A DNA stretch of 58,052 nt, taken from contig NZ_LMCM01000006.1 of the NCBI RefSeq assembly GCF_001426245.1, forward strand, positions 1 through 58,052. The letters are read 5' to 3'. This DNA is from Phycicoccus sp. Root101. Lineage in GTDB: Bacteria > Actinomycetota > Actinomycetes > Actinomycetales > Dermatophilaceae. Positions 1,561-56,813 of the stretch are shown piece by piece. The position numbers and the translations under genes are program-made. The notes beneath the pieces were generated by a model. The model ran no database searches and was not told where the DNA came from. It saw only the letters and a list, made by a program, of their open reading frames with translations. The stretch's first letter is position 1; each line of letters begins with the position of its first letter.

Positions 1561-2574
1561 GTGGCGAGCCTGATCGAGCGGTACGCCGCGGTCGTCTGTG
1601 ACCTCGACGGTGTGGTCTACCGCGGCCCCGATGCCGTCGACCACGCGGTCGGCGCGCTCTCGGGCCTCACCGTGCCGATCGTCTACGCGACGAACAACGC
1701 GTCCCGTCCTCCCGAGGAGGTTGCGGCGCACCTGACCGACCTCGGTCTGCACGCGAGTGGCCGAGACGTGGCCACCAGCTCGCAGGCCGGTGCCGAGGAG
1801 CTCGCTGCCCACCTGCCCCACGGCGCGCGGGTGCTCGCCGTCGGTGGTGTGGGTGTGCGGGAGGCGTTGCAGGCCAAGGGGTTCCGTGTCCTCCAGCCCG
1901 CCCAGGTGCGCGACGACCCCGGCCAGCGGGTGGCCGGCGTGCTGCAGGGCTACGGCCCCGACGTGACCGCTGCCGACCTCGCCGAGGCCGCGTATGCCGT
2001 GGCCGCCGGAGCCATGTGGGTGGCCACCAACACCGATGGCACCCTCCCGACGCACCGCGGCACCGCCCCGGGCAACGGCACCCTCGTGGCAGCCGTTCGC
2101 CGTGCGGTGAACCGGGACCCCGTCGTGGTCGGCAAGCCCGAGGCGCCGCTGTACCACCTGTGCGCCGGGCGCCTCGGGATCGAGGTCCGTCGGGTGCTGG
2201 CCGTCGGGGACCGTCTGGACACCGACATCGCCGGTGCGGTCAGCGCGGGGATGGACTCTGTCCTGGTGCTCACGGGCGTCGACTCGGTGACCACGCTCGC
2301 GACGGCACCCAGGCAGCTGCGACCCACCTACCTCGTCGAGGACCTGCGGTCACTGCAGGACGAGTACGACGACGCCGAGACCGACTACTCCTGGTGGGTA
2401 TGCGGGAACGACCGGCGACGGGTTGTCGACGGTCGGTGGGAGGTGGCGAGCCAAGGGGCCGCGATGGAGGCGGCTCGGGCCGGGATCGCCGCGCTCCACC
2501 AGGGGCTCGACGACGGTGACCTCGACACCGAGACGGTGCGACGTCTCGTGCGGGACCTCGACGACTGGCAGTAG
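1561..2574 (+). CDS. HAD-IIA family (NagD-like) phosphatase
   Basis: 337 aa, GTG start directly after the preceding stop. Residues 14-22 read DLDGVVYRG, with nucleophile D14 and acid/base D16 (HAD motif I). ATNNAS near residue 45 is motif II, VVGKPEAPLY near 188 supplies the motif III lysine, and VGDRLDTDI near 218 is motif IV. The cap between motifs II and III is the alpha/beta type of subclass IIA (NagD, p-nitrophenyl phosphatase, phosphoglycolate phosphatase relatives). It probably dephosphorylates a small sugar or glycolytic phosphate. The substrate cannot be read from sequence. The C-terminal ~60 residues extend past the usual family end. Confidence 0.93.
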   Translation: MASLIERYAAVVCDLDGVVYRGPDAVDHAVGALSGLTVPIVYATNNASRPPEEVAAHLTDLGLHASGRDVATSSQAGAEELAAHLPHGARVLAVGGVGVREALQAKGFRVLQPAQVRDDPGQRVAGVLQGYGPDVTAADLAEAAYAVAAGAMWVATNTDGTLPTHRGTAPGNGTLVAAVRRAVNRDPVVVGKPEAPLYHLCAGRLGIEVRRVLAVGDRLDTDIAGAVSAGMDSVLVLTGVDSVTTLATAPRQLRPTYLVEDLRSLQDEYDDAETDYSWWVCGNDRRRVVDGRWEVASQGAAMEAARAGIAALHQGLDDGDLDTETVRRLVRDLDDWQ

Positions 2575-2623
2575 CGTGAACGACCAGCAGCGGCGTCCAG
2601 CCGCTCCACCCAGGAGGTCTCCC

Positions 2624-3636: not shown

Positions 3637-4448
3637 GCGACACCACCCGGCTCGACGTCGAGCTCGTCCGCCGCGGGCTGGCCCGGTCGCGCGGCCATGC
3701 CCGGGCGCTCGTCGAGGCCGGGGACGTCCACGTCAACGGCACCGAGGCAGCCAAGATCTCCACCCCGGTGCGCCCCGGCGACGACATCGACGTCCGTGAG
3801 GCCGGGCCGGGCTGGGTGAGCCGCGCGGCATACAAGCTCGTGGGGGCCTTCGACGCGTTCGGGGGGCAGGGTCTGACGGCGGCGGGCAAGCGGTGCCTCG
3901 ACGTCGGAGCCTCGACGGGTGGGTTCACCCAGGTGCTGCTCCACCAGGGGGCGGCGCACGTGGTGGCGTTGGACGTCGGGCACGGACAGCTCGTCGCCGA
4001 GCTCGCGGACGACGCACGGGTCACCGAGCGCAGCCGGACGACGGTCCGAGGACTGGAGCCCACCGACATCGGTGGACCGGTCGACCTCCTGGTGGCCGAC
4101 CTCAGCTTCATCTCCCTGACCCTGGTCCTCGCGACCTTCCGTGCGCTCGTCCAGGACTCGGGGGACGCCCTCGTGCTGGTCAAGCCGCAGTTCGAGGTGG
4201 GGCGGACCCGCCTGGGCAAGGGCGGGATCGTCCGCAGCCAGGGGGACCGCGCCTGGGCGGTGACCGAGGTGACCCGAGCGGCTATCGAGGCAGGGCTGCA
4301 CCCGAAGGGCCTGGCCGAGAGCCCGATCCGTGGGGGAGAGGGCAACGCCGAGTACCTGTTGTGGCTGACCCCGCGCGCCGAGGAATCCCTGGGATGGGAG
4401 GCTCTGGTGAGGACCGCAGACCTGGTGAGCCTGAAGGGAGCCCCGTGA
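3633..4448 (+). CDS. tlyA: TlyA family rRNA 2'-O-methyltransferase
   Basis: 271 aa, GTG start overlapping the previous stop. Residues ~5-65 form an S4 RNA-binding domain (RLDVELVRRGLARSRGHA ... VEAGDVHVNG). Residues ~80-260 are an FtsJ-like Rossmann methyltransferase with SAM motif CLDVGASTGGFTQVLL near residue 90 and the active-site lysine in VKPQFEVG. Members methylate C1409 of 16S and C1920 of 23S rRNA and confer sensitivity to capreomycin and viomycin. The order tlyA-nadK-recN is conserved in actinobacteria. The downstream nadK start overlaps its stop. Confidence 0.95.
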   Translation: MSDTTRLDVELVRRGLARSRGHARALVEAGDVHVNGTEAAKISTPVRPGDDIDVREAGPGWVSRAAYKLVGAFDAFGGQGLTAAGKRCLDVGASTGGFTQVLLHQGAAHVVALDVGHGQLVAELADDARVTERSRTTVRGLEPTDIGGPVDLLVADLSFISLTLVLATFRALVQDSGDALVLVKPQFEVGRTRLGKGGIVRSQGDRAWAVTEVTRAAIEAGLHPKGLAESPIRGGEGNAEYLLWLTPRAEESLGWEALVRTADLVSLKGAP

Positions 4449-5407: not shown

Positions 5408-6127
5408 ATGTTCCTGGAGAATCTCGTCTTCGACGCCGTCGAGCCCCAGCGCACAGGGCGGTTCTGGGAGGCCGTGGTGGGCGGGGAGCGCCTCACCGAC
5501 GAGCCCGACGGGTTCGAGACCCGCCTGACCATCGATGGCGGCCCCGTGCTCGACCTGTGCTTCCAGCGCGTCCCCGAGTCGCCGTCGGAGCCGCTGCGGC
5601 TGCACCTCGACCTCCTCGGCGGCGACCGTCAGGCGGCCGAGGTCGAGCGACTGCTGGGGCTGGGCGCCCGCCACCTCGACATCGGGCAGCAGGACGTGCC
5701 GTGGGTCGTGCTGGCCGACCCGGAGGGCAATCCCTGCTGCGTCATGGAGGAGCGTTCGGTGTATGCCGACACCGGCCCCATCGCGGCGCTGCCGCTCGAC
5801 TCGGCCGACCCCGGGCGGGACGCGGAGTTCTGGGCCTGGCTGACCGGCTGGGTCCCTGCGCCGGGTGCGGCTCCGCAGACCCTGCGCCACCCGTCGCTGC
5901 GCGGGCCGCTCCTCGAGCTGTGCACCGAAGCGGAGCCCAAGGGACCCGGCAAGAACCGGGTGCACCTCGACGTCCGCCTCGAGGCCGGTGAGGACCCCGA
6001 CGAGATCGAGTCCCGGATCGTCGAGCGGGGAGGGCGGCGGTGGCACCCCGGCTGGGGCGACCTGCCCTGGCGCAGCTACACCGACCCCTCCGGCAACGAG
6101 TTCTGCGTCCTCCCTGCCCGGTCGTGA
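5408..6127 (+). CDS. VOC (glyoxalase-like) double-domain protein
   Basis: 239 aa. Two tandem vicinal-oxygen-chelate halves: residues ~1-115 and ~120-239, each with a FW segment (GRFWEAVVG, AEFWAWLTG), an HLD strand (RLHLDLL, RVHLDVR) and a terminal DPEGN/DPSGN strand (LADPEGNPCCV, TDPSGNEFCVL). The halves pair to make one fold. The family spans lyases, dioxygenases and resistance proteins, so no substrate can be named. It has its own leaderless-type promoter and is not coupled to nadK. Confidence 0.88.
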   Translation: MFLENLVFDAVEPQRTGRFWEAVVGGERLTDEPDGFETRLTIDGGPVLDLCFQRVPESPSEPLRLHLDLLGGDRQAAEVERLLGLGARHLDIGQQDVPWVVLADPEGNPCCVMEERSVYADTGPIAALPLDSADPGRDAEFWAWLTGWVPAPGAAPQTLRHPSLRGPLLELCTEAEPKGPGKNRVHLDVRLEAGEDPDEIESRIVERGGRRWHPGWGDLPWRSYTDPSGNEFCVLPARS

Positions 6128-6188: not shown

Positions 6189-7910
6189 GTGCTGCAGGAA
6201 CTGAGGATCCAGCGACTCGGCGTCATCGACGACGCCGTGCTCGACCTGCACCCCGGGCTCAACGTCCTCACGGGTGAGACCGGCGCCGGCAAGACCATGG
6301 TCGTCACCGGCCTCGGGCTGCTGCTCGGTGCCCGCGCGGACGCCGGCCTGGTCCGCGCCGGGGCGGCGTCTGCCGTGGTCGAGGGCCTGGTCGAGGTCGG
6401 GCCGGACCATCCCGCGTCGGTGCGTGCCGCCGAGGCCGGTGCCGAGGTCGGTGACGGACTGGTCCTCATCCGCTCGGTGTCGGCCGAGGGCCGGTCGCGC
6501 GCCCACGTGGGTGGGCGCAGTGCCCCCGTCGGCGTCCTCGCCGAGGTGGGGGAGCACCTGGTCGCGGTCCACGGCCAGGCCGACCAGTGGCGGCTGCGGC
6601 ACGGCGACCAGCACCGGGCCATGCTCGACCAGTTCGGAGGGGCCCCGGTCGCCAAGGCGCTGGGCCGCTACACCGAGCTCCACGACGAGCACGAAGCCGC
6701 CCGCGCGGAGCTCGCCCACCTGCGCGAGCAGGCCCGTGACCGGGCCCGCGAGGTCGAGGTGCTCCAGCACGGACTCGAGCAGCTCGAACAGCTCGACCCG
6801 CGGCCCGGCGAGGACGCCGACCTGCGCATCGAGGACGAGCGACTCAGCCACGCCGAGGGTCTGCGGACGGCTGCTGCCCTGGCGCACGACCACCTCGGTG
6901 GCGCCCAGGAGTATGCCGCGGAGCCCAGTCCCAGCGCGGTCGAGACGATCGCGGCCGCACGCCAGGCCCTCACCGGTGAGGTCGGGCACGACCCGGCCCT
7001 GCGCGAGCTCGACCGCAGGCTCGCCGACATCGGCTACCTCGTGGCGGACCTGGCCGCCGACCTGAGCTCGTACCTCACCGACGTCGACGTCGACCCCGCC
7101 CGCCTCGCCTGGGTGCAGCAGCGGCGCGCCGACCTCACTGCGGTGACGCGCAAGTACGGGGAGACCGTCGAGGACGCCCTGGAGTGGGGTCGCTCTGCGG
7201 CGCAGCGGCTGGACCTGCTGCTCGGCTCCGACAGCCGGATCTCCGAGCTCGAGCCACGGGTGGCCGAGCTCGACCGTGAGCGCACGGTCGCCGCGGCGGC
7301 CCTCACCCGGGCGCGGAGCAAGGCCGCTGCGAGGCTGGCCAAGGCCGTGACGACCGAGCTGTCCCACCTGGCCATGGGACAGGCGACCGTCGAGGTCGCC
7401 GTCACGCCGCGCACTGCGGGGCTCGGTCGGCACGGCGCTGACGACGTCGAGATCCTGCTCGCCGCCAACCCCGGCAGCCCGGCGCGGACGGTGGCCAAGG
7501 CTGCGTCGGGTGGTGAGCTCTCGCGCGTCATGCTCGCCCTCGAGGTCGTCACCGGCGCTGCCGGTGGTGCCGACGTCCCGACGTTCGTGTTCGACGAGGT
7601 CGACGCAGGAGTCGGCGGGTCCGCCGCCCTCGACGTGGGTGCGCGCCTCGCTGCCCTGGCCGAGCACGCCCAGGTCGTCGTCGTCACCCACCTGCCGCAG
7701 GTCGCGGCATACGCGGACCGGCACCTCGTGGTGCGCAAGGCGAGCGACGGGCACATCACGTCGAGCGGGATCCACGCCCTCGAAGGGGACGAGCGGTTGC
7801 GCGAGCTGGCCCGGATGATGTCCGGTGGCGAGAGCGAAGCGGCCCTGGACCACGCCCGTGAGCTCGTCGCCAGCACGTCCGCACGGCGCACCGCGGCCGC
7901 AGCCTCCTGA
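6189..7910 (+). CDS. recN: DNA repair protein RecN
   Basis: 573 aa, GTG start with GAGAGG upstream. The N-terminal Walker A is GETGAGKT near residue 30 (after LNVLTG). Long coiled-coil arms run from about 160 to 370 (HDEHEAARAELAHLREQARD). The C-terminal ABC signature is SGGELSRVMLALE near 440, and the Walker B is FVFDEVDAGVGG near 470. This is the SMC-like architecture of RecN, which tethers broken DNA ends for recombinational repair. Length is normal. Position between nadK and steA matches Mycobacterium tuberculosis. Confidence 0.96.
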   Translation: MLQELRIQRLGVIDDAVLDLHPGLNVLTGETGAGKTMVVTGLGLLLGARADAGLVRAGAASAVVEGLVEVGPDHPASVRAAEAGAEVGDGLVLIRSVSAEGRSRAHVGGRSAPVGVLAEVGEHLVAVHGQADQWRLRHGDQHRAMLDQFGGAPVAKALGRYTELHDEHEAARAELAHLREQARDRAREVEVLQHGLEQLEQLDPRPGEDADLRIEDERLSHAEGLRTAAALAHDHLGGAQEYAAEPSPSAVETIAAARQALTGEVGHDPALRELDRRLADIGYLVADLAADLSSYLTDVDVDPARLAWVQQRRADLTAVTRKYGETVEDALEWGRSAAQRLDLLLGSDSRISELEPRVAELDRERTVAAAALTRARSKAAARLAKAVTTELSHLAMGQATVEVAVTPRTAGLGRHGADDVEILLAANPGSPARTVAKAASGGELSRVMLALEVVTGAAGGADVPTFVFDEVDAGVGGSAALDVGARLAALAEHAQVVVVTHLPQVAAYADRHLVVRKASDGHITSSGIHALEGDERLRELARMMSGGESEAALDHARELVASTSARRTAAAAS

Positions 7911-9179: not shown

Positions 9180-10114
9180 TCGACTTCCGGTACCACCTCG
9201 TCTCCATCGTCTCGATCTTCCTGGCACTCGCCGTGGGCATCGTGCTCGGTGCCGGTCCCCTCAAGGAGGACCTGGGCAACACCCTGACGTCCGAGGTGAA
9301 GAACCTGCGCGCCGACAAGGCCACCCTGCGGGCGCAGCTCGACGCGGCCGACCGCGGCACCAAGGCGCGGGACGAGTTCACGACCGCGAGCAACCGCAGC
9401 CTGCTCGCGAGCCGCCTCACCGACACGACGGTCGCCGTGATCGTCCTGCCGGGTGCGGACGCCGGCCTCGTGAAGTCGACGACCGAGACGCTGACGGCTG
9501 CCGGGGCCAAGATCGGCTCCTCGATCCAGGTCCAGGACGCGTGGGTCGACCCCGACAAGGCGTCGTTCCGCGCCAGCCTCGGCCAGCAGCTCGCGAGCCA
9601 GGTCGGTGTGCCGCTGGACGCCCAGGGCAACGTGATCGACACCGTGCTCGCGCGTTCGGTCCTCACCAAGGCGGGTTCGGCCTCGACCGGTGCCGCGGCA
9701 GCGCTCGAGGTGATGCGCACGGGTGACCTCATCAAGTACAGCTCCGACGCCGTCACCCCCGCCAGCGTCGCCGTCGTCGTCTCCGGACCGGTCACCGGGT
9801 CGGACTCGGCAGCGCGCACGGCCCGGACCACCGCCCTCGCCCAGCTCTCGGTCGCGATGGACGCGGCCGGCGCCGGTGCCGTCCTGACCAGCACGACCAG
9901 CACCCCGGGCGCCACGGGCGTCTCCTCGGTGGTGACCGCGGTGCGCGACGACAACGACCTGTCCGACGTGCTGTCCACCGTCGACGACGGCGAACTGCCG
10001 ATGGGCCAGGCGAGCGTGGTGTTCGGCATCCTCGAGCAGGAGGCGGGCAAGGCCGGGGCATACGGGCTGGCCGGCGACGCCACCGCGGCCTTCCCGCAGC
10101 TGGCGACGAAGTAG
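9176..10114 (+). CDS. steB: SteB / MctB-like membrane protein
   Basis: 312 aa, GTG at 9176 overlapping the steA stop (GTGA). One N-terminal membrane helix (residues ~7-27, LVSIVSIFLALAVGIVLGAG) is followed by a coiled coil (~30-65) and a large Ala/Val/Thr-rich domain, likely outside the membrane. Homologues are annotated as copper transporter MctB (Rv1698) or as SteB, the partner of SteA in cell separation. With a single helix and no metal-binding motif visible, the SteB reading fits better here. Coupling with steA supports a two-component complex. Confidence 0.88.
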   Translation: MIDFRYHLVSIVSIFLALAVGIVLGAGPLKEDLGNTLTSEVKNLRADKATLRAQLDAADRGTKARDEFTTASNRSLLASRLTDTTVAVIVLPGADAGLVKSTTETLTAAGAKIGSSIQVQDAWVDPDKASFRASLGQQLASQVGVPLDAQGNVIDTVLARSVLTKAGSASTGAAAALEVMRTGDLIKYSSDAVTPASVAVVVSGPVTGSDSAARTARTTALAQLSVAMDAAGAGAVLTSTTSTPGATGVSSVVTAVRDDNDLSDVLSTVDDGELPMGQASVVFGILEQEAGKAGAYGLAGDATAAFPQLATK

Positions 10115-10122: not shown

Positions 10123-10953
10123 GTGCGTGCGCTGCACCCCCTGGTGACCGGTGCGGTCGCCGGCGTCGTGTCCGCCGGCGCGCTGGCCCTGCTGCGGGTG
10201 GTGCCGCCCGGTGGCGCGGACCGGTGGGACCGCACCAACCACGCGGGTGGAACGGTGACCCTCCTCGAGGGCCCCGCGTATGCCGCCGGTGCGGCCTGCG
10301 CGGCAGCCCTCGCCGGCGGGGGGCCCGGGCCGGTGGTCGCGGCCACGGCGGCGGCCGGCCTCGGTGCGCTCGACGACCTCGTGGGCGACTCGTCGAGCAA
10401 GGGCTTCAAGGGCCACCTGGGTGCCCTGGCCCGCGGCGAGGTGACCACCGGCGCGGTGAAGATCCTCGGGCTGGGGCTGACCGGGCTGGCCTCGGCCGCC
10501 CTCGTCGACCGCCGCGCGCGCAGGCTCGGCCCCGGCTCCGTGGCACCGACGGTCGTCGACACCCTCGTGGGTGGGGCCGTCGTCGCGGGTTCGGCGAACC
10601 TCCTCAACCTGCTGGACCTGCGCCCCGGGCGCGCGCTCAAGGTGACCCTGCTCTGGGGTGCCCTCGCGGCGACGCGTCCACGCGGGGCCTCTGCGGCCGC
10701 CGCGGCCGCGGGTGCAGCCTCGGGGCTGCTGAAGCCCGACCTGGCCGGCGAGGCCATGCTCGGTGACACCGGGGCCAACAGCGCGGGCGCCCTGCTCGGC
10801 ACGGCGCTGGTCCAGTCGACCGGGCGCCGGGGCCGGCTCGCGGCCCTCGCGGCCCTGACCGCGCTGACCCTCGCCTCGGAGAAGGTGTCCTTCACCTCCG
10901 TGATCGAGTCGACCCCCGTCCTGCGCGACCTCGACGCCCTGGGCCGCCGGTGA
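10123..10953 (+). CDS. MraY/WecA-like (PNPT family) membrane protein
   Basis: 276 aa, GTG start nine bases after steB. Hydrophobic throughout. The polyprenyl-phosphate sugar-phosphate transferase landmarks are recognisable: THAGG-type N-terminal segment (RTNHAGGTVTLLEG), aspartate pair LGALDDLVGD near residue 87, NLLNLLD near 164 and MLGDTGANSAG near 210. The HHxxE cytoplasmic loop of MraY/WecA is not visible and the protein is about 50-80 residues shorter than WecA. It could be a divergent enzyme loading a sugar-phosphate on a lipid carrier, or an inactive relative. Coupled to the MurJ-like gene by GTGA overlap. Confidence 0.72.
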   Translation: MRALHPLVTGAVAGVVSAGALALLRVVPPGGADRWDRTNHAGGTVTLLEGPAYAAGAACAAALAGGGPGPVVAATAAAGLGALDDLVGDSSSKGFKGHLGALARGEVTTGAVKILGLGLTGLASAALVDRRARRLGPGSVAPTVVDTLVGGAVVAGSANLLNLLDLRPGRALKVTLLWGALAATRPRGASAAAAAAGAASGLLKPDLAGEAMLGDTGANSAGALLGTALVQSTGRRGRLAALAALTALTLASEKVSFTSVIESTPVLRDLDALGRR

Positions 10954-12665
10954 CCTCCGCCGCGCCCGGTTCCGCCGACCGCTCGGACGCCCGCTCCGAC
11001 GATCGCCCGGAAGAACGCTCGAACGCCCGGTCGGTCGGGCTGTCCGTCGCGAAGGCCGCGGGGGTGATCGCCCTCGTCACCTTGGCAGCCCGCGTGGTGG
11101 GTTTCGGCCGCACCCTGGTCTTCTCCAAGGGTGTCGGCACCACCGAGGTCGGCGACATCTACCAGACCATCAACATCCTCCCCAACGTCGTCTACGAGGT
11201 GGCAGCCGGCGGGGTCCTCGCGGCGGTGGCCGTGCCACTCATCGCCGGCCAGCTGGGGCTGGGTCGCACCGAGGAGGCCGACCGCACCGCGTCGGCACTG
11301 CTCGGCTGGGCCGTCGTGGTCCTTGCGCCATTGAGCCTGCTGCTCGGTGTGCTCGCCCCCTGGCTGAGCCGAGCACTGCTCGGGGCCGGCGCGACCTCCG
11401 GCGACGTCGCGCTCGGCTCGCACATGCTCGTCCTCTTCGCCCCCCAGGTCCTGCTCTACGGCGTGGGGATCGTCCTGTCCGGCGTCCTCCAGGCGCGACG
11501 CAGGTTCTTCGCCGCAGCCCTGGCGCCGCTCCTGTCGAGCCTCGTCGTGATCGGGGCCTACATCGCCTATGCGGTCATGGTCGACCACGCCACCTCGCCG
11601 TCCGACGTCCCGGACCCGGCGGTCTGGGCCCTCGCCGGCGGCACCACCCTCGGGGTGGTCGTCCTGAGCCTCCCGCTGCTCGTCCCCGTGCTGAGGTCGG
11701 GGGTGCACCTGCGCCCCACCCTGACCTTCCCCGACGGGCTGGCCCGCCGGGCCCGCTCGCTCGCGGGCGCCGGGGTGGTGGCGCTCATCGCCCAGCAGGC
11801 CTCCGTCCTGACGGTCCTGTGGATCACCCACCACCGGACCGACGTGGTGGGCACGGTCAACGTCTACACCTACGCCCAGGCCGTCTACCTGCTCCCGTAT
11901 GCCGTGCTGGCCGTCCCGATCGCGACGTCGGCCTTCCCGGCGCTGGCCCACACCGCGGCCGAGGAGTCGGCCGGCTTCGCGGGAACGGCGTCCCGCGACA
12001 CCCTCGCGAGGGCGCTGCAGGGCATCATCCTGCTGACCGCCGGTGCAGCAGCCGTCCTCATGACCGTGGCCCCGGCGGTCGGGGTGTTCTTCGACCACCT
12101 CGACCGCGGTGCCCGCGCCGGCGGTGGCGTGGCTCTCGCGGCCCTGCCGGGGACGCTGTCGGCGTATGCCCCTGGCCTCCTGGGCTTCGGCGTCGCAGCC
12201 CTCCTGACACGGGCGCTGTACGTCCGGGGGCGTCCGTCGCTCGCCGCCGCGGCCGTGGCCGCCGGGTGGGCGATCTCCGCGCTCCTGCCGCTGGGCCTGC
12301 TGCCGGAGGGTTCGGGTGCCGGAACCACGCTGGGCATCCTGGGGGTCTCGTCGTCGGTCGGCATGACCGTCTCGGCCGTCCTGCTCGGCGTGCTCGTGCG
12401 CCGGGCCTGGGGCGCCGAGGCCACCCACGGCAGCGGCCGGACGCTGGGCACTGCCGTCGTCGCCGTCGCCGTCGCGCTGGCCATCGGCGACGTGGTCAGC
12501 CGGGCGATCCCCGCCACCTCCCTCTGGAGCGCGCTGGGCAGCGGGTTCGTCGTGGCCCTGACCACCCTCGGGACCTACCTGCTCGTCATGGCGGTGGCCG
12601 ACCGGAGCACCGTCAAGACCCTGCGCGACCGGGGCCGCAGCCGTCGGCGGGGGAGCGCCGCGTGA
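10950..12665 (+). CDS. MurJ/MviN-like lipid flippase
   Basis: 571 aa. A charged ~30-residue N-terminal tail (SDARSDDRPEERSNARS) precedes about 13-14 predicted membrane helices. MurJ landmarks include RVVGFGRTLVFS near residue 50 and GDIYQTINILPNVVYEVAAGG near 68. The family flips lipid-linked precursors such as lipid II across the membrane. Actinobacteria usually have another MurJ near the replication origin, so this copy may serve a different lipid-linked sugar. That is inference from the neighbouring transferase genes. Start and stop both overlap adjacent genes (GTGA). Confidence 0.88.
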   Translation: MTSAAPGSADRSDARSDDRPEERSNARSVGLSVAKAAGVIALVTLAARVVGFGRTLVFSKGVGTTEVGDIYQTINILPNVVYEVAAGGVLAAVAVPLIAGQLGLGRTEEADRTASALLGWAVVVLAPLSLLLGVLAPWLSRALLGAGATSGDVALGSHMLVLFAPQVLLYGVGIVLSGVLQARRRFFAAALAPLLSSLVVIGAYIAYAVMVDHATSPSDVPDPAVWALAGGTTLGVVVLSLPLLVPVLRSGVHLRPTLTFPDGLARRARSLAGAGVVALIAQQASVLTVLWITHHRTDVVGTVNVYTYAQAVYLLPYAVLAVPIATSAFPALAHTAAEESAGFAGTASRDTLARALQGIILLTAGAAAVLMTVAPAVGVFFDHLDRGARAGGGVALAALPGTLSAYAPGLLGFGVAALLTRALYVRGRPSLAAAAVAAGWAISALLPLGLLPEGSGAGTTLGILGVSSSVGMTVSAVLLGVLVRRAWGAEATHGSGRTLGTAVVAVAVALAIGDVVSRAIPATSLWSALGSGFVVALTTLGTYLLVMAVADRSTVKTLRDRGRSRRRGSAA

Positions 12666-13771
12666 GGGTGGCCATGGTGGTCGGTCGCTCCACCGGGGGC
12701 ATCGGCCTGCACGCCGTCGACCTCGCGACGCACCTGCGGGCCATGGGCGACGAGGTGGTCTTCGTCACCGACGACCTCACGGCCGACCGGTTCGAGCTGC
12801 CCGGGGCGCTGCGCTGGTGGCCGTCGCGCGCGGGTGGCCTCCCCTCGGCGGTCCGGTCGCTGTGGCGGCTGCACGGGCTGGCGCGGACGTCCGACGTCGT
12901 GCACGCGCACGGCCACCAGGCAGGACTGCTCGCCGTCCTGGCGGCGACCGGCACGGGCACCCCCGTGGTCGTCAGCCAGCACAACGCCGTGCTCGGCGCC
13001 CGGGGCCCCCGGAGGGTGATCTCGACCGTCCTGCAGTCGCTCGTCGCCCGGCGCTCGGCCCTCGTCACCGGCGCCTCGAGCGACCTGGTCGAGGAAGCCG
13101 CCGCGTACGGGGCGCAGGGCGCGCGGCTGGCGCCGGTGCCGTCCCCACGGGTCCCGGCCCTCGTGGCGGCGCCGCTCGCCGACGTGGCCGCACGCCGGGC
13201 CGCGGCCGACGCGCTGTTGGAGGCCCACGGCATACCCGGACCGGGCGCGCTCGTGCTCACGATCTCGCGCATCGCACCCCAGAAGAACCTCGACGTGCTC
13301 GTCGAGGCGGCCGGCCTGGTGGCCGCGCCCGTGGCGTGGGTCGTCGTCGGTGACGGCGACGACGCGCTGCTGTCCGAGCTGCGGCGGCGCGCGGCCGACG
13401 ACGGCGCCCCGGTGCACTTCGTCGGCGCGGTCGCGGACCCGACACCGTGGCTGCGGGCCGCCGAGGTGTTCGTCCTGCCGAGCCGGTGGGAGGCGCGGGC
13501 GCTCGTGGTCCAGGAGGCGATGGCCGCCGGTGTGCCCGTGGTGGCCAGCGACACCGGCGGACTGCACGACGTGGTGGAGGGTGCCGGTGTGCTCGTCCCG
13601 GTCGGCGACGCGCCCGGGTTCGCGGCCGCCGTCGACGAGATCCTCGGGGACGGCGAGCGGCGCGGGAGGCTCTCCCAGCAGGGGCGGGAGCGCGCCACAT
13701 CCTGGGACGACGGGCTCGCGACCGCGCGTCGCTGGCGCGAGTGGTACTCAGGCCTGCCCGGGATGACGTAG
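12662..13771 (+). CDS. GT4 family glycosyltransferase
   Basis: 369 aa, GTG start overlapping the MurJ-like stop. GT-B fold: N-terminal [20 protein letters not shown] with the GGI loop, HAHGHQAG near residue 80, donor-domain start [20 protein letters not shown] near 200, and the EX7E motif in [19 protein letters not shown] with VASDTGG near 280-300. No membrane helix, so cytosolic or peripheral. It would extend a lipid-linked sugar made by its neighbours; acceptor and donor are unknown. Its TAG stop (13769-13771) doubles as the first half of the pyrG -10 box. Confidence 0.88.
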
Positions 13772-13782: not shown

Positions 13783-15491
<1,709 letters not shown>

Positions 15492-16152: not shown

Positions 16153-16563
16153 GTGGCCGGCACGTTCGGTGTCGGTGCGTCGGGGGTCACTGCCGCCGGT
16201 GACTGCCCCTGCGGCACCGGTGAGCCCTATGCCACCTGCTGCGGCCCGCTCCACGCCGGCGAGTCCGTGGCCACCACGGCCGAGCAGCTCATGCGCAGCC
16301 GGTATGCCGCGTACGTGCGTGGCGACGCGCCATACCTCGTGCGGACCTGGCACCCCCGCCACCGCCCGGACCCGCTCGAGGTCGCTCCCGACCCCGGCTG
16401 GTTGCGGCTCGAGGTGCTCGACGTCGTCGGCGGTGGGGAGGACGACGGGACCGGAGAGGTCGAGTTCGTCGCGACGCACGTGGACGGGCCCCTGCACGAG
16501 CGCAGCAGGTTCGTCCGTCGGGCCGGCCGGTGGGTCTACCTCGACGGTGTCGTCCGCGACTGA
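16153..16563 (+). CDS. YchJ-like (UPF0225) SEC-C motif protein
   Basis: 136 aa from GTG 16153, the first start after the Nudix stop. Residues ~16-35 read GDCPCGTGEPYATCCGPLHA, a SEC-C-type zinc motif with Cys at CPC and CC. The remainder has LMRSRYAAYVRGDAPYLVRTW and FVRRAGRWVYLDG, typical of the YchJ/NTF2-like fold. No biochemical role is established for the family. Earlier in-frame starts exist inside the Nudix gene but would run through its coding region. Confidence 0.85.
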   Translation: MAGTFGVGASGVTAAGDCPCGTGEPYATCCGPLHAGESVATTAEQLMRSRYAAYVRGDAPYLVRTWHPRHRPDPLEVAPDPGWLRLEVLDVVGGGEDDGTGEVEFVATHVDGPLHERSRFVRRAGRWVYLDGVVRD

Positions 16564-19505: not shown

Positions 19506-20348
19506 TCACAGGCTGCCGGCTGCCGGGCGCTCGGCGTCCGGCATCCCACCGGTGAGGCGCTCGCCGTCGACGAGCACCTCGCAGCGCTCGGACCAGAACG
19601 CGACGTGGTCCTGCAGTCGGACGGCGTCGTCGAGCGGGTCGGGGTAGAACCACGCGATGTCCGCGCCGACGTCGTCCCCGGTGCCGAGGTAGCTCGCCCG
19701 CCCCTTGTAGGCACAGACGGTGTGCGTCTGCGACGGCGTGAGGAGGTCCATCCGGACGTCGTCGACGGGCAGGTACCAGCGGGTCGGCAGGGCGGTCTCG
19801 TAGACGGCGAGGGCCCTGCGGGACTCTGCGAGCACCGTCCCAGCCAAGCTGACCACGACGTGCCGGTCGCTGCGCAGCACGTCGATCCGCTTCCACGGGT
19901 CGTGCGCGTGGCCCATGACCGGTTGGTCCTCCTCCACCCAGTCGAACAGGGCGAAGTCGAGGACGACACGACCACCCAGGTCCGGGTCGTCGGGGCGGAA
20001 GCCCACCTCGACGAGCCCACCGGCATCGTCGTCGGGTGCTCCCTCCCGCACGGCCACCGGGGTTCCCGGGCACGTGTGCAGCTCGAAGTGCAGCGGGCCG
20101 AGGACCGGGGGCAGCCCGTCGGGGAGCTCACGACGGGGGAGGTCCACCAGCTCGATCCCGTTGGCTGCGAAGGCGTCCGGCGGCACGGCATACTCCGGGA
20201 CCACCCGGCGCGGCTCCCACACCAGCAGGGCATCGGTCGTGTCGACGAGGAGGTGACCGTGCCGGGAGGCGCGCAGCCGCTTCGTGGTGCGGGTGAGGCG
20301 CAGCTCGGACAGGCCGCGGAACCACTGGTCGTGCAGGTCGAGTGCCAT
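19506..20348 (-). CDS. DUF427 domain protein (two copies)
   Basis: 280 aa, ATG start with AGGAT about ten bases upstream. The C-terminal half has the DUF427 hallmarks CAYKGRASYL, IAWFYPDPL and HVAFWSERCEVLVDGE. A diverged copy precedes it (residues ~25-140, LLVDTTDALLVWE, VVLDFALFDWVEEDQPV). The family is widespread in actinobacteria with no established function; the fold is a small beta barrel. Same strand as the hydrolase but 97 bases upstream of it. Confidence 0.85.
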   Translation of the reverse strand: MALDLHDQWFRGLSELRLTRTTKRLRASRHGHLLVDTTDALLVWEPRRVVPEYAVPPDAFAANGIELVDLPRRELPDGLPPVLGPLHFELHTCPGTPVAVREGAPDDDAGGLVEVGFRPDDPDLGGRVVLDFALFDWVEEDQPVMGHAHDPWKRIDVLRSDRHVVVSLAGTVLAESRRALAVYETALPTRWYLPVDDVRMDLLTPSQTHTVCAYKGRASYLGTGDDVGADIAWFYPDPLDDAVRLQDHVAFWSERCEVLVDGERLTGGMPDAERPAAGSL

Positions 20349-23390: not shown

Positions 23391-23396
23391 GCGGGA

Positions 23397-23402
23397 TAGC
23401 CT
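23397..23402 (+). promoter_or_regulatory. -10 box TAGCCT, leaderless start of rarA
   Basis: TAGCCT ends seven bases before GTG 23410. There is no Shine-Dalgarno. The divergent MMPL gene starts at 23390, so the rarA -35 region must lie inside the MMPL coding sequence. Confidence 0.5.
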
Positions 23403-23409
23403 GCCATCC

Positions 23410-32906: not shown

Positions 32907-34596
<1,690 letters not shown>

Positions 34597-37012: not shown

Positions 37013-37069
37013 TGAAGCGACGTTCCGGCCGGGTGTCGCGCCCGTTGAGGTGCCGGGTATGGCGCGCGG

Positions 37070-42764: not shown

Positions 42765-43369
42765 CGCGACTCCAGGCCGTCGGGGTGCTCCTCGTGGCGC
42801 TCGGCCTCATCTACGCGCTCCTGTATGCCGCGTGGCTGCGCAAGCGCCGCCGTCACGCCTCCGCGGCCATCGTCGCCGAGCGCGAGCGCACCCGGAGCGG
42901 TGAGGTCACCGACGACGGCAAGGAGCCGAAGGCTGCGGCAGCCCGGCTGTCGGTCGAGGGCACGTACGTCAGCACCACCACGGCCGTCAGCCGGCTCGAG
43001 CGGGTCACCGTCGAGGGACTCGGCAACCGCGCCAGGGCGACCCTGGTCATCAACCGTGGGACCCCCGAGGACCTGGTCCGCATCGAGCGCCAGGGCGAGT
43101 CGACCGTGGTCATCACCGGACCGCGCCTGGTGGCGGTGCGCCGCGACCGCGGCATGGTCGGCAAGTTCGTCGGCAGCAACAAGATGCTGATCCTGCAGTG
43201 GCGGGCCGATGACGACGCGCTCTACGAGACCGGGTTCCTGCCGCGCTACAAGGCCGACCTCGACCGGGTCGAGTCCGCCCTGTGGTGGCACACCGGCGAG
43301 TCCCGCGAGTCGGAGAACCCGGCTCACGACCCCGATTCCCCTGCGACAGAAGGACGATCCACGTCATGA
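42761..43369 (+). CDS. Membrane-anchored PH-like protein of the pyr operon
   Basis: 202 aa, GTGA overlap with pyrC. One N-terminal helix (residues ~6-24, [20 protein letters not shown]) and a basic KRRRRH patch are followed by a beta-rich domain (~65-180, [20 protein letters not shown] ... [17 protein letters not shown]). The gene sits between pyrC and carA, as Rv1382 does in M. tuberculosis, and is annotated as PH-like. Why a membrane protein is locked into the pyrimidine operon is not known. Confidence 0.85.
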
Positions 43370-44556
43370 CCAGTCCCGCCCACCTCGCGCCGCGCGGTGC
43401 CGCCGTCCTCGTCCTCGAGGACGGGCGGGCCTTCCACGGTGAGGCCTACGGCGCCACCGGCCAGACCGTCGGCGAGGCGGTGTTCTCCACCGGCATGACC
43501 GGGTACCAGGAGACGCTCACCGACCCGAGCTACCACCGGCAGGTCGTCGTCATGACGGCCCCCCACATCGGGAACACCGGCGTTAACGACGAGGACGGCG
43601 AGTCCCGCAGGATCTGGGTCGCCGGCTACGTCGTGCGCGACCCCGCGCTGCGGCCGTCGAACTGGCGCTCGCAGAAGTCGCTCGAGGACGACCTGCGCGA
43701 GCAGGGGGTCGTGGGGATCAGCGGCATCGACACCCGTGCCCTGACCCGCCACCTGCGTGAGCGCGGCGCCATGCGCGTCGGGATCTTCTCCGGCGACCGG
43801 GCCGACCAGTCCGTCGCGCAGCTCACCTCGACCGTGCAGGAGGCGCCGCTCATGGCCGGTGCCGCCCTGGCCGCCGAGGTCACCACCGAGGAGGCGTACG
43901 TCGTGCCGGCGGTGGGGGAGAAGCGCTACACGGTCGCGGCCCTCGACCTCGGCATCAAGGCGATGACGCCGACCCTGCTCGCGCAGCAGGGCATCGAGGT
44001 GCACGTGCTCCCGGCCACCTCGACCTTCGAGGAGATCCGCGCGATCGGCGAGGACGGGCCGGACGGGGTGTTCTTCTCCAACGGTCCCGGTGACCCCTCC
44101 ACCGCGGACGCCGAGGTCGCCGTGCTGCGCCAGGTGCTCGACGCGCGCATCCCGTTCTTCGGGATCTGCTTCGGCAACCAGCTGCTCGGGCGCGCGTTGG
44201 GCTTCGGCACCTACAAGCTCAAGTACGGCCACCGCGGCATCAACCAGCCGGTGATGGACCGCACCACCGGCAAGGTCGAGGTCACCGCGCACAACCACGG
44301 CTTCGCGGTCGACGCGCCCCTGAACGGGGAGGTGACCGCCCCCGCGGACGCCGACGGCACGGCATACGGGCGGGTGCGGGTCTCGCACGTCTGCCTCAAC
44401 GACGACGTGGTCGAGGGCCTCGAGTGCCTCGACCTGCCGGCCTACTCCGTGCAGTACCACCCGGAGGCAGCAGCCGGTCCCCACGACGCGGGCTACCTGT
44501 TCGACCGGTTCGTCGAGCTCATGAAGGCCAACCAGCAGAAGGGACACGGTCTCTAG
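43366..44556 (+). CDS. carA: Carbamoyl-phosphate synthase small subunit
   Basis: 396 aa, ATGA overlap with the preceding gene. N-terminal CarA domain ([18 protein letters not shown] near residue 40), then class I glutaminase with the nucleophile Cys in [16 protein letters not shown] near 267 and His/Glu in [12 protein letters not shown] near 362. Delivers ammonia to CarB. Two bases separate its stop from the carB ATG. Confidence 0.97.
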
Positions 44557-47882: not shown

Positions 47883-48784
47883 GCGAGGCCACCACGCGCC
47901 ATACCCGTCCCGGTGGGGGAGTCGTGCAGGTGACCGGTGAGCTCATCGCGACCCGGCGCGCCGGCGCCTACCACCACCTCACCTTCGTGGCGCCGGGCAT
48001 CGCCGAGCTCGCCCGGCCCGGCCAGTTCGTCGCCCTCGCCGTGGGCGGGCCGACGAGCGCGAACCTGCTGCGCCGCTGCTTCTCGATCCACAAGGTCAGC
48101 CCCTCCGGGACCTACGGCGGGACGGTGGACGTCGTCGTCGCGGCGCACGGCCCGGGCACCCAGTGGATCTCCGAGCTGCGCGCCCATGACGAGGTCGACA
48201 TCGTCGGACCGCTCGGCCGCGCCTTCCCGCTCCCCAAGGAGCCGGTGCCCTGCGTCCTCGTCGGCGGCGGGTACGGCAGCGCCCCGCTGTTCTGGCTGGC
48301 CGAGGCGCTGCGGGCCCGCGGCTGCCACGTCGAGGTCGTCCTCGGCGCGGCGACCGAGTCCAGGCTCTTCGGCGTCGTCGAGGCGCGCCGCTACGCGGAC
48401 GGGGTCACGGTGACCACGGACGACGGGTCCATGGGCACCAAGGGCTGGGTCTCCGACGTGCTGCCCGACGTGATCCGCCGCACGGGCGCCGCCGTCGTGT
48501 ACGGCTGCGGACCGATGGCCATGCTCAGGTCGATCACCGACGTGGCCACGGCCGAGGGTGCGGTGGCCCAGGTCGCGGTCGAGGAGTCGATGGCCTGCGG
48601 TGTCGGGGTCTGCATGACCTGCGTCATGCCGGTCGTCGACGCGTCGGGCGTCACCAAGATGGTGCGGTCCTGCGTCGAGGGACCGGTGTTCCGCGGAGAC
48701 CGGGTGCGCTGGGACGCGTTCTCCGACGGACTGTGCCGGGTGCCCGACGACGCCGTCGGTGCGCCGAGGGCAGGAGGCCACTGA
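47879..48784 (+). CDS. pyrK: Dihydroorotate dehydrogenase electron-transfer subunit
   Basis: 301 aa, GTGA overlap with carB. FAD domain with RRCFSIHKV near residue 64, NAD-binding [16 protein letters not shown] near 123, and a C-terminal [2Fe-2S] site with Cys in [11 protein letters not shown] near 240 and the fourth in RSCVEGPVF near 266. This is the PyrK of class 1B dihydroorotate dehydrogenase, passing electrons from PyrD's FMN to NAD. The N-terminus carries ~15 extra residues. It overlaps pyrD by one base. Confidence 0.94.
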
Positions 48785-52091: not shown

Positions 52092-53378
52092 ATGGCGCGC
52101 ATCGTCCTCGGTGTCAGTGGTGGCATCGCGGCCTACAAGGCCTGCTCCCTGCTGCGCCTGTTCACCGAGGCCGGCCACGACGTGACCGTGGTGCCGACCG
52201 AGTCGGCCCTGCACTTCGTGGGTGCCCCCACGTGGGAGGCGCTCTCCGGCAAGCCGGTCGCGACCGGGGTCTGGGAGTCCGTGCACGAGGTGCCGCACGT
52301 GCGCCTCGGCCAGTCCGCCGACCTCGTCGTCGTGGCCCCGGCCACCGCCGACCTGGTCGCCAAGGCCGCGCACGGCCTGGCCGGTGACCTGCTCACCAAC
52401 GTCCTGCTCACCGCACGCTGCCCGGTCGTGGTGGCGCCCGCGATGCACACCGAGATGTGGGAGCACGCAGCGACGCAGGCCAACATCTCGACGCTCATGG
52501 AGCGCGGGGTGCATGTCATCCCGCCGGCGTCCGGTCGCCTCACCGGCGCGGACACCGGTCCCGGCCGGCTCCCCGAGCCCGCCGACCTGTATGCCGTGTG
52601 CGAGCGGATCCTCGCCCACGGCACCGCCGCGGTGGTACCGCCCAAGTACGCGACCGAGCTCCGCGCCATACCCGAGGACGAGGGGCTCGCCGAGGGTGGC
52701 CTCGAGGGGCGCAGGGTCGTCATCACCGCCGGAGGGACCCGGGAGCCGATCGACCCGGTGAGGTTCCTCGGGAACCGCAGCTCGGGCAAGCAGGGGTTCG
52801 CGCTGGCCACGGTGGCTGCCCGGCGGGGTGCCGAGGTGGTGCTCATCGCCGCGAACACGACCCTGGCGGCTCCCGCGGGGGTCCTCGTCGTCCCGGTGCA
52901 GACCGCCCTCGAGCTCGAGACCGCCGTCGCCGCGGCTGCGCCCGGGGCCGATGTCGTCGTGATGGCCGCTGCCGTCGCCGACTTCCGCCCGGCGCACTAC
53001 ACCGACGCCAAGATCAAGAAGACCCACGACGCCGACGACCCGGACGCCGCGCCGACGATCGAGCTGGTGCGCAACCCCGACGTCCTGGCCGGGCTGGTCG
53101 CCCGCCGCGGCGACGACGCGAGCCCCGTCATCGTCGGGTTCGCCGCGGAGACCGGCGATCAGGACGGCAGCGTCCTCGACCACGCGCGCGCCAAGCTGGC
53201 CCGGAAGGGCTGCGACCTGCTCGTGGTCAACGAGGTCGGCACCGACAAGACGTTCGGGCTCGACGACAACACAGTCCACATCCTGCGGCTGGGTTCGAGC
53301 CACGTGATCGATGCGGGGCCCGCCCCCAAGGAGCAGATCTCCGCCGCAGTGTGGGATGCCGTCCAGCAGATCTTGTGA
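52092..53378 (+). CDS. coaBC: Bifunctional phosphopantothenoylcysteine decarboxylase / synthase
   Basis: 428 aa, ATG start. N-terminal flavoprotein CoaC: GVSGGIAAYKACSLLRLF near residue 6, catalytic His in the VPHVRLG segment near 74, PAMHTEMWE near 116. C-terminal CoaB: ITAGGTREPIDPVRFLGNRS near 215 and AAAVADFRP near 300, KIKK near 318. It makes 4'-phosphopantetheine for CoA. Full length. Confidence 0.96.
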   Translation: MARIVLGVSGGIAAYKACSLLRLFTEAGHDVTVVPTESALHFVGAPTWEALSGKPVATGVWESVHEVPHVRLGQSADLVVVAPATADLVAKAAHGLAGDLLTNVLLTARCPVVVAPAMHTEMWEHAATQANISTLMERGVHVIPPASGRLTGADTGPGRLPEPADLYAVCERILAHGTAAVVPPKYATELRAIPEDEGLAEGGLEGRRVVITAGGTREPIDPVRFLGNRSSGKQGFALATVAARRGAEVVLIAANTTLAAPAGVLVVPVQTALELETAVAAAAPGADVVVMAAAVADFRPAHYTDAKIKKTHDADDPDAAPTIELVRNPDVLAGLVARRGDDASPVIVGFAAETGDQDGSVLDHARAKLARKGCDLLVVNEVGTDKTFGLDDNTVHILRLGSSHVIDAGPAPKEQISAAVWDAVQQIL

Positions 53379-53384
53379 CGTAGG

Positions 53385-54678: not shown

Positions 54679-54702
54679 CCGGCTCCTCGCACCCAGCGTC
54701 CG

Positions 54703-54755: not shown

Positions 54756-54761
54756 TCACAC

Positions 54762-56813
54762 GTGTCCGAACCGGGAGCCGTCGAGCAGCTGTCGCTGATC
54801 CGCGCCGCGCTGCCCAAGGCTCCGCGCCCGCCGAAGGCGACCGACACGGCCGAGGTCGACCCCGTCGCGGCGGTGGTCGTCGACACCGGGCTGGCCCACC
54901 TGGACCGCCCGTTCGAGTACCTCGTGCCGACCGCGCTCGGCGAGACCGCCGTGCCCGGCGCACGGGTCAAGGTGCGGTTCGCCGGCCAGGACCTCGACGG
55001 GTTCGTCGTCGAGCGCAAGGCGGCGGCCGAGCACGACGGCCGGCTGGCGCCGATTCGTCGGGTCGTGTCGCCCGAGCCTGTCCTGACCGCCCGCCAGCTG
55101 TCGGTGGCCCGGGCGGTCGCCGCCCGCTACGCCGGCACCCTCGGTGACGTCCTGCGCCTGTCCGTCCCGCCGCGCCACGCCGCTGCGGAGAAGGCCCTGG
55201 CCCTCGAGCCGCCGGTGCCCGACCCCCTGCCGGCCCTCTCCGGTCCCGGCCCCGCCTGGACCCGGTATGCCGCCGGGCCGGCCTACCTCACCCGGCTCAC
55301 CTCGGGGGAGACCCCGGCCGCGTCGTGGCTGGCCCTGCCCTCGACCGACCCGGCAGAGGACTGGCCGGCGGCCCTCGCGACGGCTGCTGCGGCAACCGTC
55401 GCCGGTGGCCGCGGCGCGGTCCTCGTCGTCCCCGACCACCGGGACGTCACCCGGGTGGATGCCGCCCTGACCGCCGCCCTCGGACCGGGAAGGCACGTGC
55501 GGCTGACCGCCGACCAGGGCCCGCAGGCGCGCTACACCGCGTGGCTCAAGGTGCTGCGCGGGCACGTGTCCGTCGTCGTCGGCACCCGGGCCGCAGCCTT
55601 CGCCCCCGTGAAGGACCTGGGCCTCGTCGCCTGGTGGGACGACGGCGACGACAACCACGAGGAGCCTCGCGCGCCATACCCGCACGTCCGGGAGGTGCTG
55701 CTGACCCGGGCCGCCGTCGAGGGGGCGGCGGTGCTGTCCGGGGGGTTCACGCGGACGGTGGCCGTGCAGCAGCTGGTGGAGACCGGCGCGCTGCGCCCCA
55801 TCGCCGCGGCCGGCGCGGTGCGCGCCGCGGTGCCGCGGGTGGTCGTCGCGGGAGAGGGACTGGAGCTCGAGCGAGACCCGGCTGCGGCCAGCGCGCACCT
55901 GCCGTCCATCGCGTGGCGGACCGCCAAGACCGCCCTGGAGTCCGGGCCCGTGCTCGTGCAGGTGCCGCGGCGGGGGTACGTGCCGTCGCTCGCCTGCCAG
56001 ACCTGTCGCGCCCCCGCTCGTTGCGCCCACTGCTCCGGCCCGATCGCCGTGACCGGGCGCGGTGCCGAGCCGGGGTGCCGTTGGTGCGGGCGTGGGGTCG
56101 GTCGGTTCGAGTGCCGCCAGTGCGGCGGACGTGAGCTGCGGTCGTCCGTCGTCGGCGCCCGCCGCACGGCGGAGGAGCTGGGACGGGCGTTCCCCGGCGT
56201 GCCCGTGCACACCTCGGGCGCGGGAGCGGTCCTCGAGCGGGTCGCGGCCGCGCCGTCGCTGGTCATCGCCACCCCGGGGGCAGAGCCCGTGGCCGACGGC
56301 GGGTACGCCGCCACGCTGCTGCTCGACGCCTGGGCCTCGCTCGACCGCCCGACGCTCGACGCGGGGGAGGAGGCGCTGCGTCGGTGGCTGGCAGCTGGTG
56401 CGTTGACCCGGGGTTCGGCAGCACGTGGGCAGGTGGTCCTGTGCGGGGCGCCCGGCCACACCACCCTGCCGGTCGTCGAGGCCCTGGTTCGCTGGGACCC
56501 GGCGTGGTTCGCCGCCCGCGAGCTCGCCGACCGGGCAGCCCTGTCGCTGCCCCCCACCGTGGTGATGGCCGCCGTCAGCGGCGAACGCCGTGCGGTCGAC
56601 GCCGCGGTGCAGCAGGCCGACCTCGCCGACGGCACCGAACGGCTCGGGCCGCTGCCGCTGCCGGACGACGCGGTGCGCATGCTGCTCCGGGTGCCCCTCG
56701 CCGACCGCGACGCGCTGGCCACGTCCCTGACCGCGATGCGGGCCAAGCGCAGTGCGCGCAAGGAACCTGTCAGCGTGCAGGTCCGTGTCGACCCGCCCGA
56801 CCCGGCGACGTAG
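54762..56813 (+). CDS. priA: Primosomal protein N' (PriA), ATPase motifs degenerate
   Basis: 683 aa. The 3'-DNA-binding domain is recognisable (PFEYLVPTALGETAVPGARV near residue 50). Where Walker A should be, the sequence is GGRGAVLVVPDHRDVTRVD with no GKT, and the DEAH position reads WWDDGDDNHEEP. The zinc-binding cysteines survive (CQTCRAPARCAHC and CRWCGRGVGRFECRQCGG, residues ~410-452). Actinobacterial PriA is known to lack helicase motifs, so this is probably a structural restart factor rather than a helicase. The ORF is intact and under its own promoter. Confidence 0.9.
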   Translation: MSEPGAVEQLSLIRAALPKAPRPPKATDTAEVDPVAAVVVDTGLAHLDRPFEYLVPTALGETAVPGARVKVRFAGQDLDGFVVERKAAAEHDGRLAPIRRVVSPEPVLTARQLSVARAVAARYAGTLGDVLRLSVPPRHAAAEKALALEPPVPDPLPALSGPGPAWTRYAAGPAYLTRLTSGETPAASWLALPSTDPAEDWPAALATAAAATVAGGRGAVLVVPDHRDVTRVDAALTAALGPGRHVRLTADQGPQARYTAWLKVLRGHVSVVVGTRAAAFAPVKDLGLVAWWDDGDDNHEEPRAPYPHVREVLLTRAAVEGAAVLSGGFTRTVAVQQLVETGALRPIAAAGAVRAAVPRVVVAGEGLELERDPAAASAHLPSIAWRTAKTALESGPVLVQVPRRGYVPSLACQTCRAPARCAHCSGPIAVTGRGAEPGCRWCGRGVGRFECRQCGGRELRSSVVGARRTAEELGRAFPGVPVHTSGAGAVLERVAAAPSLVIATPGAEPVADGGYAATLLLDAWASLDRPTLDAGEEALRRWLAAGALTRGSAARGQVVLCGAPGHTTLPVVEALVRWDPAWFAARELADRAALSLPPTVVMAAVSGERRAVDAAVQQADLADGTERLGPLPLPDDAVRMLLRVPLADRDALATSLTAMRAKRSARKEPVSVQVRVDPPDPAT

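Follow-up and report, generated by a model that had tools for sequence, protein, structure and literature searches.

What keeps a short, asymmetric word scattered over both strands of an actinobacterial chromosome, inside genes and between them? The question is raised by 58,052 nucleotides (nt) of contig NZ_LMCM01000006.1 from Phycicoccus sp. Root101 (genome G000), the window analyzed here, in which an initial annotation had noted many copies of the heptamer GTATGSC and proposed that they reflect a signal at the DNA level. The answer that we favor, tentatively, is that the octamer GTATGSCG (extended form GTATGCCGYG) may be a self-DNA tag of the Dermatophilaceae that is kept through DNA exchange, much like the DNA uptake sequence (DUS) and uptake signal sequence (USS) of other bacteria, but read on one strand. 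Our main new result is that copies in the same orientation repel one another within about 0.5–2 kb, whereas copies in opposite orientations do not.

All 33 heptamer coordinates in the initial annotation were exact, and our recount gave the same 23 copies of GTATGCC/GGCATAC (13 plus, 10 minus) and 10 of GTATGGC/GCCATAC (5 plus, 5 minus). Its rough expectation of about five for GTATGCC was also sound: base composition gives 5.3, and a second-order Markov model 1.9. The real unit is an octamer: 31 of the 33 heptamers have G as the next base, including all 10 GTATGGC copies and 21 of 23 GTATGCC copies (exceptions at 10057 and 12164). In the 729-kb sample of G000 used for word statistics, the wider context is GTATGCCGYG. 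No 8-mer of that sample is more over-represented than CGGCATAC/GTATGCCG under second- and third-order models (248 vs 10.8 and 15.8 expected); a fourth-order model puts the overlapping GCGGCATA first. Among the 24 single-letter neighbors of GTATGCCG, only GTATGGCG, the variant at the GTATGGC sites, is raised many-fold in G000 (92 vs 10.2), the others staying at or below about 2.7-fold over the second-order model (for example, GTATGACG, 19 vs 7.2). The whole of G000 carries 727+741 = 1468 copies of GTATGCCG vs 36+46 = 82 of the reversed word.

Protein coding does not account for this abundance. With reading frames and gene boundaries from our own gene-calling script, 208 copies of GTATGCCG were observed in G000 genes vs 18.8 after synonymous-codon shuffling, 146 vs 10.4 in genome G002 and 111 vs 7.2 in genome G017 (20 shuffles each); within the window genes, 23 GTATGCC were observed vs 4.0 after shuffling, with a maximum of 9 in 200 shuffles. 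Most genic copies sit, in both orientations, at Tyr-Ala or Ala-Tyr, where they are silent, and 68 of 340 copies are not wholly within a gene vs 37.4 expected from length. Motif counts are thus far above both the Markov and the codon-shuffled nulls that the initial annotation had named as a check, and the shuffles and, as described below, silent-site conservation and spacing all support its claim that a signal beyond codon preference acts at the DNA level.

The spacing of the copies was another of the proposed checks. In G000, the neighbor of a copy tends to face the other way (198 of 304 gaps are between opposite copies), and at 40–1000 bp there are 30 same-orientation and 82 opposite-orientation pairs, with 75.8 of each expected. 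The observed-to-expected ratios in G002, G017 and G003 are 0.59, 0.69 and 0.24 for same-orientation pairs and 1.26, 1.01 and 1.00 for opposite ones; convergent and divergent pairs scarcely differ beyond 40 bp. Pooled figures, including 171 same vs 399 opposite pairs below 1 kb (p=5e-22), are not independent because congeners share conserved sites, but G000, G002 and G017 taken singly have the same sign. Among 215 similarly abundant 8-mers of G000, GTATGCCG has the lowest same-orientation g, 0.42, and the next has 0.77; deletion between direct repeats is ruled out as the cause of the repulsion by the 214 other 8-mers, whose same-orientation g is at least 0.77. Over 400 kb of C1 (C1–C4 are contigs of G000), the variance/mean per 10 kb is 0.31 for plus copies, below all 2000 random placements, and 0.37 for minus copies, and the plus and minus counts are nearly uncorrelated (0.06).

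The spacing effect survives conditioning on protein sequence. We define occupancy as the share of silent-compatible places, in the two main frames and with our own gene calls, that carry the motif: it is 178/493 in G000, 115/184 in G002 and 89/133 in G017 (36–67%), vs 2/62 in the congener G010 and 0/49, 0/64 and 0/86 (0/199 summed) in the motif-free genera represented by G011, G016 and G033. Sorted by the nearest same-orientation copy, occupancy is 25/131 (0.19) below 250 bp, 110/177 (0.62) at 3–5 kb and 26/63 (0.41) beyond 5 kb; sorted by the nearest opposite-orientation copy, it is 0.41–0.51 up to 3 kb and lower farther out. In a logistic model of 1437 places from nine genomes, a copy within 1 kb has an effect of −1.22 (standard error 0.13) if in the same orientation and +0.17 (standard error 0.12) if in the opposite one. 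Where the motif is densest, the effect is short-range, as in G017, where 6/21 places are filled below 250 bp and 19/25 at 250–500 bp.

As the initial annotation had suggested, we also looked at orthologous and synonymous positions, aligning the window with syntenic stretches of eight congeners that are 80–88% identical over the aligned part. In the seven that use the motif, GTATGCCG is intact at 82/105 aligned sites, compared with 24–42% for other 8-mers; TAT is kept at 66/86 synonymous-aligned sites within the motif vs 13/48 elsewhere, and GCA at 28/35 vs 81/437. The eighth, G010, is nearer to G000 by nucleotide identity than six of these seven, and it retains GTATGCCG at 2/19 aligned sites, with TAT kept at 2/15 in the motif and 2/8 elsewhere. 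The motif has been kept in seven congeners and nearly lost in a close one, and we therefore conclude that most lines actively maintain their sites; at least in the region of the window, this maintenance would appear to have stopped in the G010 line. Genome-wide, G010 has 332+293 = 625 copies of GTATGCCG, more than 2 in 54.7 kb would suggest. Its remaining copies may be unevenly distributed, perhaps as recent imports from motif-rich relatives. The top word in the 54.7 kb of G010 is TACGCCGT, which resembles a degraded copy of the motif.

Individual sites in the window show the same pattern. On the plus strand, GTATGCCG lies at 6911..6918 and 10278..10285 (both intact in 5/6 aligned congeners and lost in G010), at 42823..42830, 52589..52596 and 55265..55272 (each intact in 6/7 and lost in G010), at 33678..33685 (intact in 8/8 relatives, G010 included), at 16302..16309, and at 1992..1999, 5761..5768, 11897..11904, 24630..24637 and 31976..31983. 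On the minus strand it lies at 29150..29157 (intact in 7/8 aligned congeners, lost in G010), 21980..21987 (intact in 5/7), 13228..13235, 3826..3833, 7705..7712, 20186..20193, 24545..24552, 32863..32870 and 44360..44367. Two further GTATGCC heptamers, at 10057..10063 (minus) and 12164..12170 (plus), are not followed by G. The GTATGGCG variant occupies 15174..15181, 21753..21760, 25200..25207, 30236..30243 and 37057..37064 on the plus strand and 16328..16335, 35875..35882, 47897..47904, 52664..52671 and 55672..55679 on the minus strand, the copy at 16328 forming a convergent pair with that at 16302. Our gene calls are consistent with the Ile ATA codons that the initial annotation saw forced at 13229 and 52665, and they leave the copy at 37057 outside genes, as it had said. 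The His CAT codon that it read at 47898 is doubtful because the gene start there is uncertain, and this copy too falls outside called genes.

The variant sites also point to changes of dialect. Six of the ten GTATGGCG sites are intact in G007 and none in the other seven congeners (15174 is one that is intact in G007 only), which instead have either a non-motif word or GTATGCCG itself: the latter is read at 16328 in G008 and G003, at 30236 in G006, G004 and G002, and at 47897 in G008, G006, G003 and G004. GTATGGCG is common in G000 and G007 and not in the six other congeners compared; being intact only in G007, this dialect is therefore young in the genus.

Two further features of the placement stand out. 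Within 40 bp, G000, G002 and G017 have 18 oppositely oriented pairs, 11 of them convergent, and 8 of these 11 fall no more than 100 bp from the 3′ end of a gene; several close pairs make long stems (C1 at 14414, 225481 and 326618). Pooled over genomes, convergent pairs at 8–40 bp number 21 vs 5.9 expected, and in G017 alone they are not raised (1 vs 1.5). In addition, the motif is absent from a few lower-G+C stretches of G000, namely both ends of C2, the last 15 kb of C3 and most of C4. Four of the six proteins tested there matched mobile-element families in Pfam: three are encoded in C4 (an IS110 transposase and two of rve/HTH transposase type), and the fourth, a phage integrase, lies at the end of C2; at the C3 end, where no Pfam search was made, we saw no mobile gene by eye. 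A C4 protein that we had read by eye as TraG-like was dropped, the 58-residue piece tested having no Pfam match.

How widely is the motif distributed? Besides G000, we compared 57 relatives: 10 congeners, one genome from each of 25 further genera in the family, and 22 genomes from outside it. All 10 congeners are enriched in GTATGCCG, with between 332+293 and 1983+2003 copies. Of the other Dermatophilaceae genera, 11/25 are strongly enriched by our own cut-off (at least 900 copies and at least 5x the reversed word), three (G025, G026 and G029) are intermediate, and 11 show no enrichment, with 11–196 copies, 0.9–3.7x the reversed word. None of the 22 genomes outside the family has more than 167 copies, and in a survey of 246 genomes of the phylum, 3/3 family members and 0/243 others were enriched, the highest of the latter having 386 copies in 7.5 Mb, 2.2x its reversed word. 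At the level of named relatives, for which the loci examined were at most 22.7 kb each, the motif outranks every other word in Terracoccus, Terrabacter, Intrasporangium, Ornithinimicrobium, Tetrasphaera and others; loci of Janibacter hoylei, Marihabitans, Luteipulveratus and others contain no copies, and Flexivirga loci carry GTATGNCG in its place.

Words other than the motif also turned up in these comparisons. We saw no other dialect in 100 kb each of the motif-free genomes G011 and G016. G033, also from a motif-free genus, has an excess of GTACGCCG on both strands (65 vs 11.4 in 100 kb), perhaps as a second tag or a repeat. In the motif-free loci of Marihabitans and Janibacter hoylei, the leading 8-mer is CCCCCTTC/GAAGGGGG (15 vs 1.5 and 12 vs 1.4). 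In nine pooled orthologous Kribbella loci, GTACGGCG (193 vs 54.5) and GTACGCCG (185 vs 63.4) are about 3-fold over the third-order model, and orientation makes no clear difference beyond 500 bp.

Among the explanations that the initial annotation had offered, an uptake or recombination signal fits these observations best. Strands bearing the tag would be favored in DNA exchange, by natural transformation or by some other form of recombination that passes through single-stranded DNA, and the tag would thereby spread and persist, each copy serving only its own strand over roughly 0.5–2 kb. If a tag were read on double-stranded DNA, a neighbor of either orientation should make it redundant; here only same-orientation neighbors do so, and therefore the putative reader should meet one strand, as we infer, or move one way. 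In Gram-positive cells, incoming DNA is present as a single strand from the membrane onward, which could make a tag strand-specific. Uptake sequences under molecular drive are similar in several ways to what we see: occupancy is high, most sites in the window have gone from G010, dialects change, and copies pair up near gene ends. On this reading the sites would be filled by an active bias rather than by selection at the level of the host.

We searched for candidate machinery in 36 Dermatophilaceae genomes. ComEC (36/36), DprA (36/36) and TadE (35/36) offer almost no contrast with motif status, and none of ComEC, RecC, T2SSE, PDDEXK_1/AdnAB, DprA and TadE separates motif-rich from motif-free genomes. 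In a ComEC alignment covering 30 of the 36 genomes, motif-free genomes tend to differ at more of the 127 positions that are invariant in motif-rich ones (up to 24/127, distance not modeled), with zero differences in G010 and G011. One motif-free genome, G016, is without TadE and has no T2SSE hit above the cut-off. Flp-pilus natural transformation has been reported in another actinobacterium, Micrococcus luteus, and a text search of that paper for "uptake sequence" and "sequence-specific" gave nothing (PMC4322843). Among the open-licence papers listed for actinobacterial DNA uptake, Flp-pilus transformation and Intrasporangiaceae competence, we saw no report of such a motif, and those listed on competence did not name the family; the octamers themselves led only to an apparently unrelated Ralstonia typing scheme.

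Several points weigh against the self-DNA tag. The competence genes do not follow the motif, as just described: the ComEC of G010, which has lost most sites in the window, is unchanged at the invariant positions, and G005 is motif-rich though its comEC reads as two frames (G005:C1:1517076-1517881, in a single-contig genome), by either a sequencing error or a recent break. Our searches of open-licence papers showed no report of transformation in Dermatophilaceae among the matches listed. Across 20 stretches of the G003 chromosome, plus and minus counts are correlated (0.68), and density there therefore varies regionally for both strands. Compared with random draws from the silent-compatible places, same-orientation pairs fall short by only about 2 SD (standard deviations) each in G000 (same/opposite 12/31 observed, 21.3/22.2 expected), G002 (21/39, 29.3/32.0) and G017 (27/47, 33.6/43.6); this null is conservative because the real sites lie within its pool. 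The orientation-dependent spacing was also lacking in known uptake sequences, for which our control comprised 38 non-redundant Haemophilus-type USS-rich loci and 19 Neisseria DUS-rich loci, taken from pattern scans of viral contigs and probably proviruses with host flanks: same/opposite pairs below 1 kb were 47/49 for USS and 25/28 for DUS, vs the pooled 171/399 for the Dermatophilaceae motif (Fisher test of USS + DUS vs motif, p=4e-5, with pooled congener sites that are not independent). Finally, directional spacing by itself fits a Chi sequence of AdnAB equally well.

That last alternative is the strongest rival, though we consider it unlikely: a helicase-nuclease working at broken ends would read the motif one way, and selection for repair would space the copies separately for each direction. 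Such a directional reader would need just the pattern observed, repulsion in the same orientation and independence in the opposite one. AdnAB is the candidate reader because G000 is without RecC. AdnAB-type tandem nuclease domains, their pairing read from positions, occur in 36/36 family genomes, and motif-rich genomes make up 3/10 of those with RecC vs 19/26 of those without (counting G010 as rich and not corrected for kinship). The response of AdnAB to any Chi is described as unknown in two papers (PMC13309787, PMC4824097). On the other side, E. coli K-12 Chi clusters, with 35 same-orientation pairs below 1 kb in 450 kb vs 15.9 expected, and in 20 stretches, each 20 kb long, spread round the G003 chromosome the motif shows no preference for either strand (100 plus, 93 minus, unrelated to the sign of local GC skew). 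G010 lost most of its sites while keeping 256/256 and 312/314 of the positions of AdnA and AdnB that are invariant in motif-rich genomes; in an alignment covering 20 of the 36 genomes, no AdnA or AdnB residue was fixed in the 15 rich genomes and changed in at least 4 of the 5 others. Filling of two-thirds of the tested silent places in G017 also seems to us too much for a repair benefit accruing site by site.

Less probable still is a binding site for a nucleoid or chromosome-organizing protein that is selected for even spacing, as has similarly been proposed for the cyanobacterial repeat HIP1. The low variance of each strand's counts in C1 and the conservation of sites among congeners are what it would lead one to expect, but a protein binding double-stranded DNA should repel copies of either orientation, and opposite copies are not repelled; moreover, the motif is not a palindrome, and 11 of the 25 other family genera show no enrichment. 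A segregation motif with replication polarity, which the initial annotation had also listed, is unsupported given the balance of strands in G003.

Decay of a methylated C in GTACGSCG to T, the last of its candidates, is very improbable. GTACGCCG within genes is indeed lower than after codon shuffling (70 vs 95.5 in G000, 13 vs 30.8 in G002 and 9 vs 20.6 in G017), a deficit that is compatible with decay and would also follow if TAT is maintained at Tyr-Ala sites, but relative to Markov models of G000 it is not depleted (73 vs 59.6 and 45.2). At GTATGCCG sites among motif-using relatives, just 9/37 differences are T/C at position 4 (6/37 are T/G there) and all eight positions vary, and mutation by itself would not space copies on each strand. 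A codon or dipeptide bias, or a chance artifact, is refuted for practical purposes, in spite of the Tyr-Ala and Ala-Tyr setting of most genic copies, by the codon shuffles and by motif-free relatives, which have the same dipeptides and fill none of 199 places.

The window itself looks like ordinary core chromosome, the eight proteins scanned including carbamoyl-phosphate synthase, aspartate carbamoyltransferase, AlaS, AspS and a PriA-type protein. The nearest named records for AlaS are from Phycicoccus sp. Soil748 (94%) and Pedococcus bigeumensis (91%), and the host, judged by sequence, is a member of the Dermatophilaceae near Pedococcus. A 735-codon minus-strand frame of high coding score (21186–23390) overlaps the start of a plus-strand RarA-type open reading frame (22573–24828) whose family match begins only at residue 313; the true RarA start is probably farther downstream.

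If the self-DNA tag is real, each strand would have its own evenly spaced ruler of tags, kept by a single-strand step in transformation or recombination. We lean toward the view that the motif is either the first Gram-positive self-DNA signal and the first repetitive tag read strand by strand or, alternatively, the missing Chi of AdnAB. With it, one or the other possibility can be put to a direct test in soil bacteria, for which G010 offers a line that lost the motif naturally and G000/G007 a change of dialect. More generally, strand-resolved spacing provides evidence on how a tag is read and could be applied to any repetitive motif.

We also set the motif beside known repeat systems. KOPS and AIMS are frequent short asymmetric motifs that are polar toward the terminus, whereas our 20 G003 stretches showed no replichore polarity. 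HIP1 of cyanobacteria, a highly iterated short octamer of unknown purpose and patchy distribution among lineages, is similar in being present in some lineages only, but it is palindromic, whereas our motif is not and its orientation matters. With Chi of RecBCD/AddAB it shares an asymmetric octamer and a spacing as if read one way; it differs in the lack of RecC in G000, its rapid loss and dialect change, and its spacing out where E. coli Chi clusters, and E. coli Chi is skewed toward the leading strand, which the Dermatophilaceae motif is not. DUS and USS have lineage dialects, as the motif does. Those two belong to Gram-negative families, the Neisseriaceae and Pasteurellaceae, respectively (PMC1939737, PMC7811141), whereas the motif has a Gram-positive, high-GC host and a spacing that depends on orientation. 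DUS and USS are poor in newly acquired DNA, and they resemble the motif in other respects: their copies number in the hundreds to thousands, lie on either strand without replichore bias and are conserved at orthologous positions (PMC1939737, PMC2397512, PMC7811141), and they form inverted pairs past gene ends (PMC2397512, PMC7811141), much like the convergent pairs that we find in the Dermatophilaceae.

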